From Sphingopyxis sp. USTB-05 (GTDB taxonomy: Bacteria; Pseudomonadota; Alphaproteobacteria; Sphingomonadales; Sphingomonadaceae), in NCBI RefSeq assembly GCF_023822045.1, contig NZ_CP084712.1, positions 3,286,001 through 3,350,000 on the forward strand: a DNA stretch of 64,000 nt, in the 5' to 3' direction. Shown piece after piece: positions 31,933-38,470 of this stretch. The notes under the pieces were generated by a model. That model was not told the origin of the DNA and did no database searches. It was given only the letters and a program-made list of their open reading frames with translations. Each line of letters begins with the position of its first letter. Position 1 is the first letter of the stretch. A program made the translations under genes and the position numbers.

Positions 31933-32355
31933 ATGCGTCATAAATCAGGTGGCCGGAAGCTTCAGCGCACGAGCGCGCATCGCACCGCCCTTTTCCGCAA
32001 CATGTCGGCATCGCTCATCAAGCATGAGCAGATCACGACGACCGTCGCCAAGGCGAAGGAACTGCGTCCCTACGTCGAAAAGCTGGTGACGCTCGCCAAG
32101 CGCGGTGGCCTTGCCAACCGTCGCCTCGCGAACAGCCGCCTTCTCGACGACACGCAGCTCAAGAAGCTGTTCGACGTCCTCGCCGAGCGCTACAAGGACC
32201 GCAACGGCGGTTACACCCGCATCATCAAGGCCGGCATCCGCGCCTCGGACGCGGCACCGATGGCGGTCATCGAATTCGTCGACCGCGACGTCGACGCCAA
32301 GGGCCAGGATTCGGGCCCCGTCGAGCAGTATGACGACGAGGTGGAAGCCGCGTAA
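31933..32355 (+). CDS. rplQ: 50S ribosomal protein L17
   Basis: 140 residues. [20 protein letters not shown] and [18 protein letters not shown] are L17 signatures; the acidic tail past residue 118 is common in alphaproteobacteria. Last gene of the alpha operon, followed by a terminator. Confidence 0.99.
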
Positions 32356-32380
32356 AACGCGCTTTCAGCGAAACGAGATC

Positions 32381-32414
32381 AAGGGCGGCATCCGAAAGGA
32401 TGGCCGCCCTTTTT
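32381..32414 (+). terminator. Terminator of the alpha operon
   Basis: AAGGGCGGCATCC pairs with GGATGGCCGCCCTT (one bulged base) around GAAA, ending in a short T-run, 26 bases after the rplQ stop. Confidence 0.85.
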
Positions 32415-32468
32415 CATGGCCGCGGTGTCGGCTTTGGGTTGGAAAGCGGGCATCCCGTCCCCCGCTTC

Positions 32469-32559
32469 CGTCATCCCGGGCTTGACCCGGGATCCCGCTT
32501 TTTGACGCACTCACTGGCTTCGATTTCAAGCGGGACCCCGGATCCAGTCCGGGGTGACG
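32469..32559. repeat. Palindromic repeat, family 1 (paired)
   Basis: CGTCATCCCGGGCTTGACCC...AAGCGGGACCCCGGATCCAG... with a TTTTTGACGCACTCACTGG centre. First of three repeats packed into the 540-base gene-free stretch between rplQ and the GbsR-type gene. Confidence 0.85.
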
Positions 32560-32597
32560 AAAAAGGATTGGTCGGCAACCGGTCGTTTCCCATTTGC

Positions 32598-32684
32598 GCA
32601 CCCCGGCGAAGGCCGGGGCCCAGGGCTTCAGAGAGCCGACCTCTGCTCGTTGCGCTCTGGACCCCGGCCTTCGCCGGGGCACAC
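32598..32684. repeat. Palindromic repeat, family 2 (paired)
   Basis: CACCCCGGCGAAGGCCGGGG at the left is mirrored by CCCCGGCCTTCGCCGGGGCA at the right, with a CCAGGG/TCTGGA inner pair. A second copy is at 50956-51040, again next to a family 1 element. Confidence 0.85.
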
Positions 32685-32720
32685 ACCTGCAACGGCAGCA
32701 ATCGGTCATTACCCGAACCT

Positions 32721-32801
32721 CGTCATCCCGGGCTTGACCCGGGATCCCGCTTCTTGAGGCGCCCACTGGCTTCAACTTCACGCGGGACCCCGGATCAAGT
32801 C
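32721..32801. repeat. Palindromic repeat, family 1, right end truncated
   Basis: The left arm CGTCATCCCGGGCTTGACCC is intact, but the right arm stops after CGGGACCCCGGATCAAGTC and loses the GGGGTGACG end seen in other copies. Confidence 0.75.
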
Positions 32802-32877
32802 GAACGAGCCACGTGTCGCGTTCGAGGGTAACGATGATGGAAAGGGCCGCAACCGGTCGAAACCCGCCCGCCGGTAC

Positions 32878-32923
32878 TTGACTTCCTATCCCCTATGTCC
32901 GATATTTCTGTCATGACAGAAAT
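32878..32923 (+). promoter_or_regulatory. Promoter with overlapping 20-base palindromic operator
   Basis: TTGACT (32878-32883), 17 bases, then GATATT (32901-32906). The perfect palindrome ATTTCTGTCATGACAGAAAT spans 32904-32923. It covers the -10 end, the expected transcription start and the ATG at 32913. A regulator bound here would block its own gene. Confidence 0.65.
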
Positions 32924-33488
32924 TACCGAAAACCTGTCGAAGCTTTCCCCGGCCGCGACCGAGTTCATCCTTCACTGGGGCAATCTTGGCAACCAGTGGG
33001 GCGTCAACCGCTCGGTGGCGCAGATCCACGCGCTATTGTTCATCTCCGACCGCCCGCTCCATGCCGAAGAAATCGCAGAAATGCTTGGGCTGGCACGTTC
33101 CAATGTTTCCAATTCGATCAAGGAGCTGCTCGGCTGGCGGCTGATCGAACGCGTTCCGCTGCTCGGCGACCGGCGCGACCATTTCACGGCCGAGAAGGAC
33201 ATCTGGGAAATGGTCACGCGCATCGCCGCGGGGCGCAAGGCGCGGGAGGTCGACCCCGCCGAAGCGGCGCTGAAAGCGTGTGTCGCCCGCGCGGCGGATG
33301 ACCCACAATTGAGCGGCGAAGCCAAGGCGCGGCTCGCCGACATGCTCGATTTCGTCACGACGATGGGGCGCTGGCACGACGAGATGCTGAGCGTGCCCAA
33401 ACCTGCACTGATGCGGCTCATCAAACTCGGCGCCGGGGTGACCAAGCTGATCAACTGGCGCCCGGGCAAGGGCAAGGACGCCGGATAG
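32913..33488 (+). CDS. GbsR/MarR family transcriptional regulator
   Basis: 191 residues. A winged helix spans about 25-90, with SVAQIHALLFISDRPLHAEE and IAEMLGLARSNVSNSIKELL as the DNA-reading part, and a C-terminal helical dimer region. It resembles GbsR-type MarR proteins. An in-frame ATG at 32895 lies upstream of the predicted -10 end, so the ATG at 32913, at the predicted transcript start, was chosen; the message would be leaderless. The next gene follows after an AGGAGG site that overlaps its stop. Confidence 0.85.
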   Translation: MTEITENLSKLSPAATEFILHWGNLGNQWGVNRSVAQIHALLFISDRPLHAEEIAEMLGLARSNVSNSIKELLGWRLIERVPLLGDRRDHFTAEKDIWEMVTRIAAGRKAREVDPAEAALKACVARAADDPQLSGEAKARLADMLDFVTTMGRWHDEMLSVPKPALMRLIKLGAGVTKLINWRPGKGKDAG

Positions 33489-33498
33489 GAGGCCAGCG

Positions 33499-34167
33499 AT
33501 GCGCGGCACGGCAAAGCGGATGATCGACGCACGGGAACCCGCCGCGTGCGAAAGTGGCGAGGCGCTGTCCGACGATCGCTTCCGCCGCCTCGTTCCGCGC
33601 GCTGCATGGGACGCACTCCCCCATGATGTCCGTCAACGCTTCAGCAAGCGCCTCTCCGGCACGGCGGTCGCGACCTATCGCGGCGAGATTGTCTGGACGC
33701 GCCTTTCGCGCGCCGGATGGTTGCTCGCACAGTTCTGCCGGTTGATCGGCGCGCCCTTGCCGACCAGCCGCAGCGGCCCCGCACCTGCCGCCGTCGCCGT
33801 CAGCGAAGACCGCAAAAGCGGCGGCCAATGCTGGACGCGACTCTACGGTCGCGCCCGTGGCCACCCGCAAGTCATCCATAGTGCAAAAAGCTTTGCGGGA
33901 CCGACGGGGCTGGAGGAACATATCGGTGGCGGCTTCGGCATGGCGCTTGCCGTCCGCGCCGAGGCCGACGCGCTGATCTTTACGTCCGATCATTATTTCT
34001 GGCAGGCGGCGGGACTTCGGTTCCGCATCCCCGGCTGGCTCTCCCCCGGCACGACCGTCGTGACGCACCAGCATCTGGGCAGCGGCCTTTTCGCCTTCGA
34101 TCTCAAGGTCACGCATCCGCAGCTTGGCGAACTCCTCAACCAGCACGGGCTGTTCCGCGATGCCTGA
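33499..34167 (+). CDS. Standalone DUF4166 protein
   Basis: 222 residues. RFRRLVPRAAWDALPHDVRQRF, a GGEQ-like SGGQCWTRLYG strand and the final HPQLGELLNQHGLFRD match DUF4166, whose function is unknown. No signal peptide. The same domain recurs at the C-terminus of the gene at 34564. A perfect AGGAGG lies 6 bases before the ATG, and the DCC gene overlaps its end by 8 bases. Confidence 0.8.
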   Translation: MRGTAKRMIDAREPAACESGEALSDDRFRRLVPRAAWDALPHDVRQRFSKRLSGTAVATYRGEIVWTRLSRAGWLLAQFCRLIGAPLPTSRSGPAPAAVAVSEDRKSGGQCWTRLYGRARGHPQVIHSAKSFAGPTGLEEHIGGGFGMALAVRAEADALIFTSDHYFWQAAGLRFRIPGWLSPGTTVVTHQHLGSGLFAFDLKVTHPQLGELLNQHGLFRDA

Positions 34168-34567
34168 CCAAGCCGGCCCGATCATCCTGTTCGATGCCGA
34201 ATGCGTGCTGTGCTCGGCCAATGCGCAATTCGTCCTGCGCCACGACAAGTCCGCACGGTTCCGCCTTGCGTCGATCCAGGGCGAGGCGGGCCGCGCATTA
34301 TGCCGCGAACACGGTCTCGATCCGAACGATCCGACGACCATTCTCGTGATCAAAGACGCGCGCGTGCGGCGCGATAGCGATGCGGTTCTGGCGATTTACG
34401 AAGGGCTCGGCCGGCCCTGGCGGCTATTTTCGCTTTTACGCCTCGTTCCCGCGTTGCTCCGCGATCCGGTTTACCGATGGATCGCGCGCAATCGTTACCG
34501 GCTGTTCGGAAGACGCACGTCCTGTTGGATCGCCCCGCCCGAATATCGCAGCAGGATATTGCCATGA
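34160..34567 (+). CDS. DCC family thiol-disulfide oxidoreductase (DUF393)
   Basis: 135 residues. The defining opening is IILFDAECVLCSANAQFVLR, a thioredoxin-like fold with a CXXC pair (ECVLC). The middle has DPTTILVIKD and the end VYRWIARNRYRLFG, both typical of DCC proteins. Its substrate is unknown. It overlaps the genes on both sides (8 bases before, ATGA after), so it belongs to the four-gene unit. Confidence 0.9.
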   Translation: MPDQAGPIILFDAECVLCSANAQFVLRHDKSARFRLASIQGEAGRALCREHGLDPNDPTTILVIKDARVRRDSDAVLAIYEGLGRPWRLFSLLRLVPALLRDPVYRWIARNRYRLFGRRTSCWIAPPEYRSRILP

Positions 34568-36219
34568 AGATATTGATCCTCGGGGGCTATGGCGTGTTCG
34601 GCGGCCGCCTTGCCGAACTGCTCGCCGATTTGCCCGACCTCGACCTGCTGATCTGCGGCCGCGACCTCGCCCGCGCGGAACGCTTCTGCGCGGCCTATCG
34701 TGGCGCCGCGCGCGTCCATCCGCACGCGCTCGACCGGCGCGATATCGCCGGCGCGCTGGACGATCTCCTGCCCGACCTCGTCGTCGATGCGTCGGGGCCT
34801 TTTCAGGACTATGGCGCCGACCGTTATCGCGTCGTCGAAGCCTGCATCGCGGCAAAGACCGACTATCTCGACTTTGCCGATGGCGCCGATTTCGTCTTCG
34901 GCATCGATCGCTTCGATGCACAGGCAAAGGCCGCCGATATCTTCATCCTGACGGGCGTCAGCAGCTTTCCCGCACTTACCGGGGCGGTGCTGCGCGAGAT
35001 GGCAAAGACGATGGACATCCGCACCGTCGAAGGCGGGATCGCGCCCTCGCCTTTTGCAGGAATCGGGCTCAACGTGATGCGCGCGGTCGTCGGCTATGCC
35101 GGCGCGCCGGTTAAATTGCGGCGCGGCGGTCGGGACGGCCATGGCATCGGCCTGGCCGAGAGTCTGCGCTATACCGTCGCAGTCCCCGGCCGGTTGCCGC
35201 TCAGGAACATTCATTTCTCGCTCGTCGACGTCCCCGATCTCCAACTCATTCCGCGCGCATGGCCTGCGATTACGGACATCTGGATGGGCGCCGGGCCGGT
35301 GCCCGAAATCCTGCACCGCATCCTGAACCTTCTCGCCAAAACGCGCGCGCGTTTTCACCTGCCCTCGTTCGAGCCGTTTTCTCGACTTTTCTATGCAGTG
35401 CTCAACCGCATGCGTTTCGGCGAGCATCGCGGTGGCATGTTCATCCGCGCGCGCGGTCTGGTCGACGACCGGCCGGCGGAGCGGAGTTGGCATCTTTTGG
35501 CCGAGGGCGATGACGGCCCCTATATTCCTTCGATGGCGATCGAGGCGATCGTCCGCAAACTGCGCACCGGCGACCGCCCGGCCGCGGGCGCGCGATCCAG
35601 CGTCGATGCGCTGACGCTGGCCGACTATGACGCGCTTTTCGACGGCCGCTCGATCCACACCGGGTTTCGCAGCGAAGAAGCGGGCGCCCCGCTCTATCGT
35701 CAGATACTCGGAGCTGCCTTCGACACCCTGCCGCCGCAGCTTCGGTCGCTGCACGGAAGCAAGGCCGAACGCCGGTGGCAAGGCCATGCGGAAGTCCGCC
35801 GCGGCACGGGGCTGCTCGCGCGCCTTGCCGCCGCCATCATCGGTTTCCCCAAAGCCGCGGCAAGCGTGCCGGTCACGGTCGCTTTCACCGCCGAAGAGGG
35901 GGGCGAGCGCTGGAGCCGCGATTTCGGCGGCAAGCGCTTTTCGTCGCTGCAGTCGCGCGGAACCGGACGAAGCGACTATCTGCTCGTCGAACGCTTCGGT
36001 CCCCTGTCCTTTGCCATGGCGCTCGTGACCCGGGATGAGCGCCTCTATCTCGTCCCGCGCCGATGGTCGGCCTTTGGCATTCCCATGCCGCGCTGGCTGA
36101 TGCCGGACGGCACGAGTTTTGAGGCGGAAGCCGATGGCCGGTTCTTCTTTGACGTGGAAATCTCTGCGCCGCTTGTCGGATTGATCGTCGCCTATCGCGG
36201 ATCGCTCGAACCCGTCTGA
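34564..36219 (+). CDS. Saccharopine dehydrogenase-like NADP-binding domain fused to DUF4166
   Basis: 551 residues. Residues 1-130 form a Rossmann domain (LILGGYGVFGGRLAELL, then VVDASGPFQDYG) like that of saccharopine dehydrogenase-related enzymes, a group that includes lipid trans-acting enoyl reductases. Residues from about 375 on (DALFDGRSIHTGF, PLYRQILGAAFDTLPPQLRS) are a DUF4166 domain. A fold bridging the two is unassigned. ATG overlaps the DCC stop as ATGA. It likely reduces or oxidises a substrate held by DUF4166; this is inference. Confidence 0.85.
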   Translation: MKILILGGYGVFGGRLAELLADLPDLDLLICGRDLARAERFCAAYRGAARVHPHALDRRDIAGALDDLLPDLVVDASGPFQDYGADRYRVVEACIAAKTDYLDFADGADFVFGIDRFDAQAKAADIFILTGVSSFPALTGAVLREMAKTMDIRTVEGGIAPSPFAGIGLNVMRAVVGYAGAPVKLRRGGRDGHGIGLAESLRYTVAVPGRLPLRNIHFSLVDVPDLQLIPRAWPAITDIWMGAGPVPEILHRILNLLAKTRARFHLPSFEPFSRLFYAVLNRMRFGEHRGGMFIRARGLVDDRPAERSWHLLAEGDDGPYIPSMAIEAIVRKLRTGDRPAAGARSSVDALTLADYDALFDGRSIHTGFRSEEAGAPLYRQILGAAFDTLPPQLRSLHGSKAERRWQGHAEVRRGTGLLARLAAAIIGFPKAAASVPVTVAFTAEEGGERWSRDFGGKRFSSLQSRGTGRSDYLLVERFGPLSFAMALVTRDERLYLVPRRWSAFGIPMPRWLMPDGTSFEAEADGRFFFDVEISAPLVGLIVAYRGSLEPV

Positions 36220-36304
36220 CGGGTATCAAATCCCCTTGCCCGTCTCCTGTCGATGCCTACATATCGGCGCACGATAATTTCCCCAGAAAAGAGGTCGCCT
36301 TGCC

Positions 36305-38470
36305 ATGCCCCGTAAAACCCTGTCCGCGCCGCTGGCGCTTGTTGCCCTGACGATGATTCCGGGCGCAGCACAGGCGGCCGACGCCGCCGCGGCATCGGCA
36401 TCGGCATCGGTCAAGGCGCTGGCCTATCCCGATACGGCGCGCGGCGACACGATCGACCCTCAGTTCGGGGTCGATGTCGCCGACCCCTATCGCTGGCTCG
36501 AGGATGATGTTCGCGTCAACCCCAAGGTCGCCGACTGGGTCGTGGAACAGAACAAGGTGACCGATGCCTATCTGGACACGCTGCCCGGGCGTGACACGTT
36601 CAAGAAGCGGATGACCGAACTTTACAACTACGAGCGCTTCGGCCTGCCGACGAAGGCGGGGACGCGCTATTTCTACAGCCGCAACGACGGGCTCCAGCCG
36701 CAGTCGGTGCTTTACGTCCGCGAAGGGTTGAAGGGCGAAGGCCGCGTGCTGATCGACCCCAATAGCTGGGCCAAGGACGGCGCGACCGCGCTCGGGGAAT
36801 GGAATCCGTCGGAGGACGGCAAACATCTCCTCTATTCGGTGCAGGACGGCGGCACCGACTGGCGCATCGTCCGGGTCAAGGATGTCGCGACCGGGCAGGA
36901 TTTGTCCGACGAGGTCCGCTGGGTTAAATTCTCCGCGCTCGATTGGGCAAAGGACGGCAGCGGCTTTTATTATTCGCGCTTCCCCGAACCCAAGGAGGGC
37001 GAGGCCTTCCAGTCGCTCAACGAGAATCACAGCGTCTATTTCCACAAGCTCGGGACGCCGCAGAGCGCCGACGTGCTGATCCACGCGACCCCCGACAAGC
37101 CCAAGCTGAACAACAGCGCGGTGGTCACCGACGACGGCAAATATCTGCTCGTCGTCTCGTCCGAAGGCACCGACGAACGCTATGGCCTGACGCTGTATCC
37201 GACCGACAAGCGCAGCGCGAAGCCGATCGTGCTGGTGGACGACTTTGCGAACAATTGGGAATATGTGACCAACGAGGGGCCGCGCTTCACCTTCGTCACC
37301 AACAAGGGCGCACCGCGCGGGCGCCTGGTCTCGCTCGACATCAAAAAGTCCGCGGCGCTGACCGAACTGGCCGGCGAGAATGAGGCGACACTGGTCGGCG
37401 CGTCGCGCGTCGGCAATCGCATCATCCTCTCCTACCTCGGCGATGCGAAGTCGGAAGCGCGGATGATCGCGCTCGACGGAAAGCCGGTCGCCAACATCAA
37501 CCTTGCCGACATCGGTTCGGCCTCGGGCTTCGGCGGCAAGTCGAGCGATCCCGAAACCTTTTATGCCTTTTCAAGCTATGCGCGGCCGACGACTATCTAT
37601 CGCTTCGACACGCAGACCGGGCGGAGCGAGATTTTCGCCGAGCCGAAGCTGACCTTCAAACCGGCCGATTTCAGCGTCGAACAGCGCTTTTACAAATCAA
37701 AAGACGGTACCGAAGTGCCGATGTTCCTGGTGATGAAAAAGGGCCTCGACCGCAGCAAGGGCTCGCCGACGCTTCTTTACGGCTATGGCGGCTTCAACGT
37801 CTCGATGACCCCCGGCTTCTCGCCGACGCGCCTCGCCTGGGTCGACAAGGGCGGCGTGCTGGCGATCGCCAACCTGCGCGGCGGCGGCGAATATGGGAAG
37901 GCGTGGCACGATGCCGGCCGCCTCGACAAGAAGCAGAATGTCTTCGACGATTTCATCGCGGCGGGCGAATATCTGATTGCAGAGGGGATTGCCGGCAAGG
38001 GCCAGATCGCGATCGAGGGCGGGTCGAACGGCGGGCTGCTCGTCGGCGCAGTCACCAACCAGCGCCCCGACCTGTTCGCCGCCGCGCTGCCCGCGGTCGG
38101 CGTGATGGACATGCTGCGCTTCGACCGCTTCACCGCGGGGCGCTATTGGGTCGACGATTATGGCTATCCGTCGAAGGAAGGCGATTTCAAGAACCTGCTC
38201 GCCTATTCGCCCTACCATAATATCAAGGACGGCACCGCCTATCCCGCGGTGCTGGTGACCACCGCCGATACCGACGACCGCGTCGTTCCGGGGCACAGCT
38301 TCAAATATACCGCCGCGCTCCAGCACGCGAAGGCGGGCGACAAGCCGCATCTGATCCGCGTCGAAACGCGGGCGGGCCATGGCAGCGGCAAGCCGACGGA
38401 CAAGATCATCGCAGAGGCGGCCGACAAATATGCCTTTGCGGCGAAGTGGACCGGGCTGAGCGTCGAATAA
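36305..38470 (+). CDS. Prolyl oligopeptidase, exported (S9A)
   Basis: 721 residues with a signal peptide (1-24). A seven-bladed propeller (about 80-440) precedes the alpha/beta hydrolase domain. Catalytic residues are Ser574 (GGSNGG), Asp657 (TADTDDRV) and His692 (GHGSG). It cuts short peptides after proline, probably in the periplasm. The next gene starts on the last base of its TAA. Confidence 0.96.
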   Translation: MPRKTLSAPLALVALTMIPGAAQAADAAAASASASVKALAYPDTARGDTIDPQFGVDVADPYRWLEDDVRVNPKVADWVVEQNKVTDAYLDTLPGRDTFKKRMTELYNYERFGLPTKAGTRYFYSRNDGLQPQSVLYVREGLKGEGRVLIDPNSWAKDGATALGEWNPSEDGKHLLYSVQDGGTDWRIVRVKDVATGQDLSDEVRWVKFSALDWAKDGSGFYYSRFPEPKEGEAFQSLNENHSVYFHKLGTPQSADVLIHATPDKPKLNNSAVVTDDGKYLLVVSSEGTDERYGLTLYPTDKRSAKPIVLVDDFANNWEYVTNEGPRFTFVTNKGAPRGRLVSLDIKKSAALTELAGENEATLVGASRVGNRIILSYLGDAKSEARMIALDGKPVANINLADIGSASGFGGKSSDPETFYAFSSYARPTTIYRFDTQTGRSEIFAEPKLTFKPADFSVEQRFYKSKDGTEVPMFLVMKKGLDRSKGSPTLLYGYGGFNVSMTPGFSPTRLAWVDKGGVLAIANLRGGGEYGKAWHDAGRLDKKQNVFDDFIAAGEYLIAEGIAGKGQIAIEGGSNGGLLVGAVTNQRPDLFAAALPAVGVMDMLRFDRFTAGRYWVDDYGYPSKEGDFKNLLAYSPYHNIKDGTAYPAVLVTTADTDDRVVPGHSFKYTAALQHAKAGDKPHLIRVETRAGHGSGKPTDKIIAEAADKYAFAAKWTGLSVE

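Follow-up and report, generated by a model that had tools for sequence, protein, structure and literature searches.

A proposed MarR-controlled redox operon with DUF4166 domains of two subfamilies and its presumed operator in Sphingopyxis sp. USTB-05

We analyzed a 64-kilobase (kb) stretch of the 4.68-megabase genome of Sphingopyxis sp. USTB-05 (contig NZ_CP084712.1, positions 3,286,001 to 3,350,000; hereafter the window, to which coordinates refer), in which four co-directional genes spanning 32913–36219 on the plus strand encode a MarR/GbsR-type regulator, a stand-alone DUF4166 protein, a DCC1-like thiol-disulfide oxidoreductase (hereafter DCC), and a fusion of a saccharopine-dehydrogenase-like (SDH) part with a second DUF4166 domain. 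The genes appear to form a MarR-controlled redox operon around an uncharacterized enzyme. The reading that we favor, with modest confidence, is that of a self-regulated, horizontally moving oxidoreductase operon that uses reduced nicotinamide adenine dinucleotide phosphate (NADPH) and is directed at a compound that is hydrophobic and may be electrophilic, a thiol protein serving as helper. The features of the operon are as follows.

32878–32883, plus strand: −35 box TTGACT (sigma-70 scan).
32901–32906, plus strand: −10 box GATATT, 17 nucleotides (nt) from the −35 box (sigma-70 scan, alignment).
32904–32923, no strand assigned: presumed operator, a perfect 20–base pair (bp) palindrome, ATTTCTGTCATGACAGAAAT, with the regulator start codon at its center (alignment, site scans).
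32913–33488, plus strand: MarR/GbsR-type regulator, 191 amino acids (aa) from the corrected start (Pfam, alignment).
33279–33281, plus strand: codon of Cys123, the only Cys of the regulator (two alignments).
33487–33492, plus strand: Shine-Dalgarno sequence AGGAGG, overlapping the regulator TAG stop at 33486–33488.
33499–34167, plus strand: stand-alone DUF4166 protein, 222 aa, of the MarR-linked subfamily, type I (Pfam, tree, predicted barrel).
34160–34567, plus strand: DCC1-like thiol-disulfide oxidoreductase, 135 aa, with DxxCxxC and a third conserved Cys (Pfam, motif count).
34564–36219, plus strand: saccharopine-dehydrogenase-like/DUF4166 (type II) fusion, 551 aa (Pfam, structure comparison).
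34564–35679, plus strand: dehydrogenase part of the fusion, residues 1–372, with the Rossmann motif GGYGVFGG and Arg33 after strand 2.
35728–36207, plus strand: type II DUF4166 domain of the fusion, residues 389–548 (Pfam, tree).

The gene set, its order, and the tight junctions given in the original prediction were all borne out by the sequence and by Pfam: the Shine-Dalgarno sequence overlaps the regulator stop, the stand-alone DUF4166 and DCC genes share 8 bases (34160–34167), and the DCC and fusion genes share ATGA (34564–34567). In Pfam, the regulator matched MarR_2 with an E value of 2.1e-12 (PF12802, 47.5 bits, cut-off 27; PF01047, 25.7 bits, cut-off 24.6) and had no second match in its own genome at E ≤ 0.001. 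DUF4166 (PF13761, cut-off 23 bits) was matched by the stand-alone protein at 123.2 bits (E 1.3e-35) and by the fusion at 113.1 bits (E 1.6e-32), PF04134 by the DCC protein at 103.5 bits (E 2e-29, over the Pfam cut-off), and PF03435 (Sacchrp_dh_NADP) by the N-terminal part of the fusion at 43.3 bits (cut-off 25.1, E 5.6e-11).

When the 11 Sphingopyxis-clade loci were aligned, the DNA before the regulator proved little conserved until the TTGAC box (11 of 11), the −10 box, and the palindrome ATTTCTGTYATGACAGAAAT. The palindrome is a new element, overlooked in the original prediction; it covers the −10 box and the regulator start codon, with ATG 32913 at its center. One copy was found in the window at up to three mismatches, compared to 0.03 expected. 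The host genome holds one perfect copy, one with two mismatches, and four with three; the reversed control pattern gave four sites at up to three mismatches. Since the −10 box ends at 32906, transcription is expected to start at or next to the ATG, near 32912–32914, which would probably make the message leaderless, and a regulator bound at the palindrome would block the promoter. The regulator gene itself was correctly called, and its start is probably this ATG (191 aa) rather than the ATG at 32895 proposed before, which is not present in any of the 10 other aligned loci. A longer form is still conceivable because, by eye, four of those loci (L034, L039, L048, and L050; L denotes fetched loci and G genomes) have GTG or TTG at the position equivalent to 32895.

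How general the palindrome is was assessed on loci numbered up to L199 on which profiles were run, with the shorter copies L117–L143 excluded, the repeats L001, L002, L011, and L014 dropped, and a limit of 2.6 kb between neighboring MarR and DUF4166 genes. At up to one mismatch, it lies at the regulator start in 43 of 44 MarR-DUF4166 loci and is perfect in 35; a start-type codon stands at its center in 38, and TTGAC precedes it by 20 to 31 nt in 41. L102, where MarR and DUF4166 are more than 2.6 kb apart and sites occur at one and two mismatches, was left out of the count. The palindrome was found at none of 124 DUF4166 loci without a regulator (some places were fetched twice, and stretch lengths differ). 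An order-wide scan at up to one mismatch found a site in 110 of 396 genomes, a second regulator group included, compared to 11 with the reversed control. The palindrome is not just conserved coding sequence, since one half precedes the gene and related regulators carry its center ~16 to 49 bp before their start. A conserved palindrome is present at the operon promoter, where a MarR protein that represses its own operon would bind.

The proposal that the genes are one unit with its own regulator held in that the site is dedicated and conserved and a simple sigma-70 scan of 32300–36700 gave no promoter between the four genes (two matches, compared to a shuffle mean of 0.7: the operon promoter and one at 35497 inside the last gene). 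It does not extend to all relatives: some have a second palindrome before DUF4166 itself, and a single promoter is therefore not the rule everywhere. In G606 and G620, where the palindrome precedes a DUF4166-SDH pair, the 7-kb stretch contains no regulator, and a regulator with its own site lies elsewhere in the genome.

The second regulator group (L267–L283 and L236; e.g., L270:3451–5876) is related to the MarR-type regulators of the DUF4166 loci and has the same palindrome, centered ahead of its start as described above; a second copy is often found ahead of a gene for a small membrane protein that belongs to no Pfam family. Such proteins in operator-linked operons would fit, without proving, an envelope theme. 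A DCC1-like protein is also encoded in the operator-linked operon of L270 (PF04134 match) and apparently in that of L269 (CxxC by eye). In G019, a perfect palindrome (L235:4001–4020) separates a fatty-acid desaturase gene from a YhhN gene of opposite direction, a possible member of a lipid regulon. In G205 (L237:4010–6292), two palindromes with one and two mismatches precede a 132-aa open reading frame, an epimerase–DoxX_3 fusion, and a DUF2269 protein; this may be a similar unit built on a different NAD(P) enzyme. MarR and DUF4166 are followed in G652 (L286:3522–6452) by an epimerase/DUF1731 protein in place of SDH, so that regulators of this kind are found with a third enzyme as well.

To estimate how often the parts of the operon occur together, an even set of 398 Pseudomonadota genomes was sampled. 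DUF4166 was present in 50 genomes (own genome included), and 56 loci outside the own genome were fetched and searched with purpose-built profiles; partners were defined as genes fused to DUF4166 or located within 3 kb on the same strand. A partner (MarR, DCC, or SDH) accompanied DUF4166 at 50 of the 56 loci. DCC was the commonest neighbor (29 loci), followed by fused SDH (19), MarR (15), and separate SDH (6). In a separate Pfam count, the 50 genomes with DUF4166 gave 54 DCC matches, of which 33 lay within 3 kb of DUF4166, where ~0.2% per gene is expected. Among the best 80 of 269 fusion relatives, the examined stretch contained a DCC gene in 50, directly upstream in 49, and MarR with a stand-alone DUF4166 in 11. 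The gene set is not a chance neighborhood, though partial sets are common: MarR-DUF4166, DCC-SDH/DUF4166, DUF4166-DCC, and MarR-DUF4166-SDH all occur elsewhere. Co-occurrence thus reaches well beyond the host, in support of the original prediction, but the full four-gene order is mainly a Sphingopyxis form.

That order was found in all 11 Sphingopyxis-clade loci fetched by the fusion (the window counted), in G039, and, as far as its loci show, in G185. Within the genus, 15 of 60 genomes (own included) hold the fusion, 14 of them in one frame. In the remaining one, G797, it is split over two frames near residue 260 (L306, G797:C3:395788–397435); the other three genes there give full-length profile matches. 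Eighteen further genomes of the 60 hold only a distant SDH with 35 to 42% identity. We fetched loci from 15 of these 18 and from 5 of the 15 fusion genomes. All five fusion loci have the four genes and the palindrome (perfect in four). Of the distant-SDH loci, 11 have the arrangement MarR-DUF4166-SDH, in which the palindrome is perfect and the stretch contains no DCC; another 3 are SDH-DCC pairs that lack both MarR and DUF4166, and the last has SDH only. Regulators of one kind would thus drive two different enzyme cartridges.

The unit also moves horizontally, as can be seen from two sets of data. In a fusion tree built by a quick method, 11 rows grouped as Gammaproteobacteria nest in Alphaproteobacteria, and supported branches force at least three changes. 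The fusion was also matched in 20 of 72,556 plasmid records, in 12 cases over the greater part of its length. Plasmid loci include DCC-SDH/DUF4166 on a megaplasmid of Ruegeria sp. TM1040 (L114) and DUF4166-DCC on a plasmid of Variovorax sp. SRS16, with a DoxX gene ~1.2 kb upstream (L116). One of the 11 nested rows, L068, comes from a contig recorded as Bacillus subtilis SK7B5; it is probably contamination, because its fusion falls inside the Stenotrophomonas clade.

The two DUF4166 domains of the operon are of different kinds. The original prediction had taken them for one unknown domain that occurs alone and fused; instead, a tree of 104 DUF4166 domains, for which the fusion loci had been thinned beforehand, splits with full support into two well-separated subfamilies. 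Type I is mainly stand-alone and MarR-linked (31 rows, 26 of them MarR-linked); type II is linked to DCC or SDH (73 rows, 53 fused to SDH and 14 stand-alone beside DCC). Since the window holds one of each, the operon joins two cassettes rather than containing a duplicated domain. Structure models suggest a nitrobindin/lipocalin-like barrel for DUF4166, with an invariant Arg-Ser-Glu set; a Protein Data Bank (PDB) sequence search with DUF4166 gave chance-level matches only. In the fusion, residues G7, G8, Y9, G10, F12, and G13 of the Rossmann motif are invariant in 65 rows, and the modeled structure suggests an NADPH-dehydrogenase fold. In the DCC family, DxxCxxC is present in 83 of 83 sequences and the C-terminal Cys in 82; the PDB sequence search with the DCC protein returned matches at chance level only.

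Our results can be assembled into the following proposal. The MarR/GbsR-type protein would repress the operon by binding the 20-bp palindrome, which takes in the −10 box, the regulator start codon, and the point at which transcription is expected to begin; a small molecule, perhaps an electrophile sensed by the lone Cys123, would lift repression. We infer this binding, repression, and signal; the conservation of the site is as described above, and that of the Cys is given below. The induced operon would yield an NADPH-dependent enzyme of saccharopine-dehydrogenase fold with its own DUF4166 barrel, a free DUF4166 barrel of the other subfamily, and a small CxxC thiol protein. The compound held in the barrels for reduction by NADPH would most likely be a hydrophobic carbonyl, enoyl, or imine, probably derived from lipids, and the DCC protein, where present, would keep a thiol of the system reduced or remove a thiol adduct as an optional helper. 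A single NADPH-dependent reaction is plausible. The hydrophobic nature of the substrate is suggested by the predicted barrel and the one G019 palindrome, and a lipid or envelope origin by the predicted fold together with faint regulon hints. More tentatively, DUF4166, with its Arg-Ser-Glu set, may be a new catalytic or substrate-presenting barrel that partners NADPH dehydrogenases in an undescribed pathway for a hydrophobic membrane-derived electrophile. A one-cysteine GbsR-type repressor would act at a palindrome over a leaderless start, and lineages would exchange the enzyme as a cartridge; this larger picture is possible, and we do not hold it to be probable.

Several observations speak against the proposal. 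Six of the 56 loci have no partner (L157, L163, L166, L178, L191, and L198; at L166, an epimerase-type NAD(P) enzyme lies upstream). Of the 15 phylum-sample loci with MarR, 12 lack both DCC and SDH within 3 kb, and the type I barrel therefore needs neither beside it. DCC is absent from the examined stretch at 30 of the 80 fusion loci (that of L098 ends 122 bases upstream and that of L085 at 1.5 kb) as well as from the 11 Sphingopyxis MarR-DUF4166-SDH loci, and is therefore not essential to the core reaction. L193 is the single one of the 44 MarR-DUF4166 loci without the palindrome, and L284 and L285 have sites with neither MarR nor partner alongside, probably by chance. Five genomes (G550, G564, G566, G334, and G441; L170, L172, L173, L181, and L182) hold MarR-DUF4166 and DCC/fusion loci unlinked, the latter without a site; a common MarR regulon over such unlinked loci is not supported, no site being found at the fusion loci at up to three mismatches. 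Several operator-linked operons without DUF4166 encode the small membrane proteins described above. A Foldseek search with the DUF4166 barrel gave no match at E ≤ 0.001, the solved structures nearest to the dehydrogenase part are amino-acid and polyamine enzymes rather than lipid enzymes, and what points to lipids is a single site in a single genome.

The alternative to which we give most weight, while considering it doubtful, is a thiol-stress unit in which Cys123 senses an oxidant or electrophile, DCC deals with disulfides or with adducts on thiols, and the NADPH enzyme provides reducing power or clears the electrophile, with no lipid needed. At the position of Cys123, 29 of 31 aligned regulators carry Cys (all but L102 and L164), and a second set has one shared Cys column in 28 of 30 DUF4166-linked regulators; in 16 related regulators without DUF4166 alongside, a different Cys column is kept in 10. 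A conserved lone Cys makes a redox or electrophile signal possible, and OhrR, a MarR protein with one Cys, senses organic peroxides. The alternative is also consistent with DCC being the commonest neighbor of DUF4166, with the DCC1-like protein in the L270 operon, which lacks DUF4166, and with the three Sphingopyxis SDH-DCC pairs. However, DCC is found at only 2 of the 15 MarR-linked phylum loci and at none of the 11 Sphingopyxis MarR-DUF4166-SDH loci, and the barrel fold resembles binders of hydrophobic ligands. It is the conserved regulator Cys that places this alternative slightly above the next one, with which it would otherwise rank equally.

The closest solved folds of the dehydrogenase part are carboxyspermidine dehydrogenase, lysine dehydrogenase, and saccharopine reductase, with 12 to 16% identity to the seven best solved chains, and its PDB sequence matches belong to the same family. 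They would fit a module that makes or degrades a nitrogen compound, in which the dehydrogenase forms or splits a C–N bond of the carboxyspermidine/saccharopine type and the barrels bind the amine or its imine. We consider such a module unlikely: sequence similarity is confined to the first ~145 residues, the barrel is of a type that binds hydrophobic ligands, and no neighbors are shared beyond close relatives, most neighbors being unannotated, so that a pathway gene could be missed. A still slimmer chance attaches to the type I barrel being a heme or nitric oxide protein like nitrobindin, a barrel with a conserved axial histidine. Nitrobindins are the best fold matches, and the reading is kept because type I has conserved His (three, each in 24 to 26 of the 26 MarR-linked rows); yet identity is 7 to 12%, the spirocyclases OssO and OlmO match equally well, and these His are not among the conserved residues of type II, in which the one His that is conserved is found at the first helix (73 of 73). 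Least probable is that the genes are co-transcribed neighbors without joint function: partial sets occur, and the 12 MarR-linked loci without DCC or SDH raised this reading marginally, but the same parts recur and fuse in differing neighborhoods, plasmids included, and within one genus a regulator and site of the same type also precede a distant SDH.

Around the operon, Pfam identified a ribosomal L17 gene upstream and an S9 peptidase gene downstream. Between the L17 gene and the operon (32469–32801) are two 81-nt copies of a GC-rich intergenic repeat, 90% alike, and a 26-nt inverted repeat. Outside neighbors are conserved between related loci only, an example being the S9 peptidase gene, which recurs across the 11 Sphingopyxis-clade loci; few neighbors are annotated. 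Elsewhere, Pfam matches beside DCC-linked solo DUF4166 include sigma-70, DnaG primase, pseudouridine synthase, and Cu-oxidase_4; these look like positional neighbors and were rejected as functional partners. A role in anti-phage defense was likewise rejected: with PADLOC, the regulator matched nothing but Csa3, and that weakly (19.6 bits, E 0.00019), and the other three proteins had no match at E ≤ 0.01.

Each protein belongs to a known family. The regulator shares the MarR-type helix-turn-helix with GbsR/CudC-type regulators of choline and glycine-betaine control, and CudC (NF047500) is its nearest NCBIfam model; unlike these, it scores far under the cut-off (44.8 bits compared to 218), has its own palindrome over its own start codon, and has no choline or betaine gene among the annotated neighbors of the operon. 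It resembles OhrR-like sensors in its single conserved Cys, but this lies at residue 123, after the DNA-binding domain, whereas that of OhrR is near the N terminus. The enzyme falls within the saccharopine/carboxyspermidine dehydrogenase superfamily and differs in being fused to DUF4166. The DCC protein is a member of the DCC1-like family (YuxK), scoring well over its cut-off. DUF4166 shares its predicted barrel with nitrobindin and the OlmO/OssO spirocyclases and differs by its low identity and its own Arg-Ser-Glu set; a Bacillus subtilis protein of the same Pfam family was matched in the control genome. The names DUF4166 and PF13761 were not found in the searched literature, which holds few subscription papers. 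Searches there for DCC with saccharopine, for DUF393/YuxK and DCC names, and for the palindrome letters, GbsR operators, and leaderless MarR autoregulation gave no description of the unit. The function of DUF4166, the assembled unit, and the palindrome were thus not found in that literature.

The palindrome and the gene linkage make the function of DUF4166 directly testable: a reporter could be used to search for the inducing compound, which should be the substrate or close to it. If the reading that we favor is true, it would add an NADPH-dependent reaction and give a function to a domain of unknown function.

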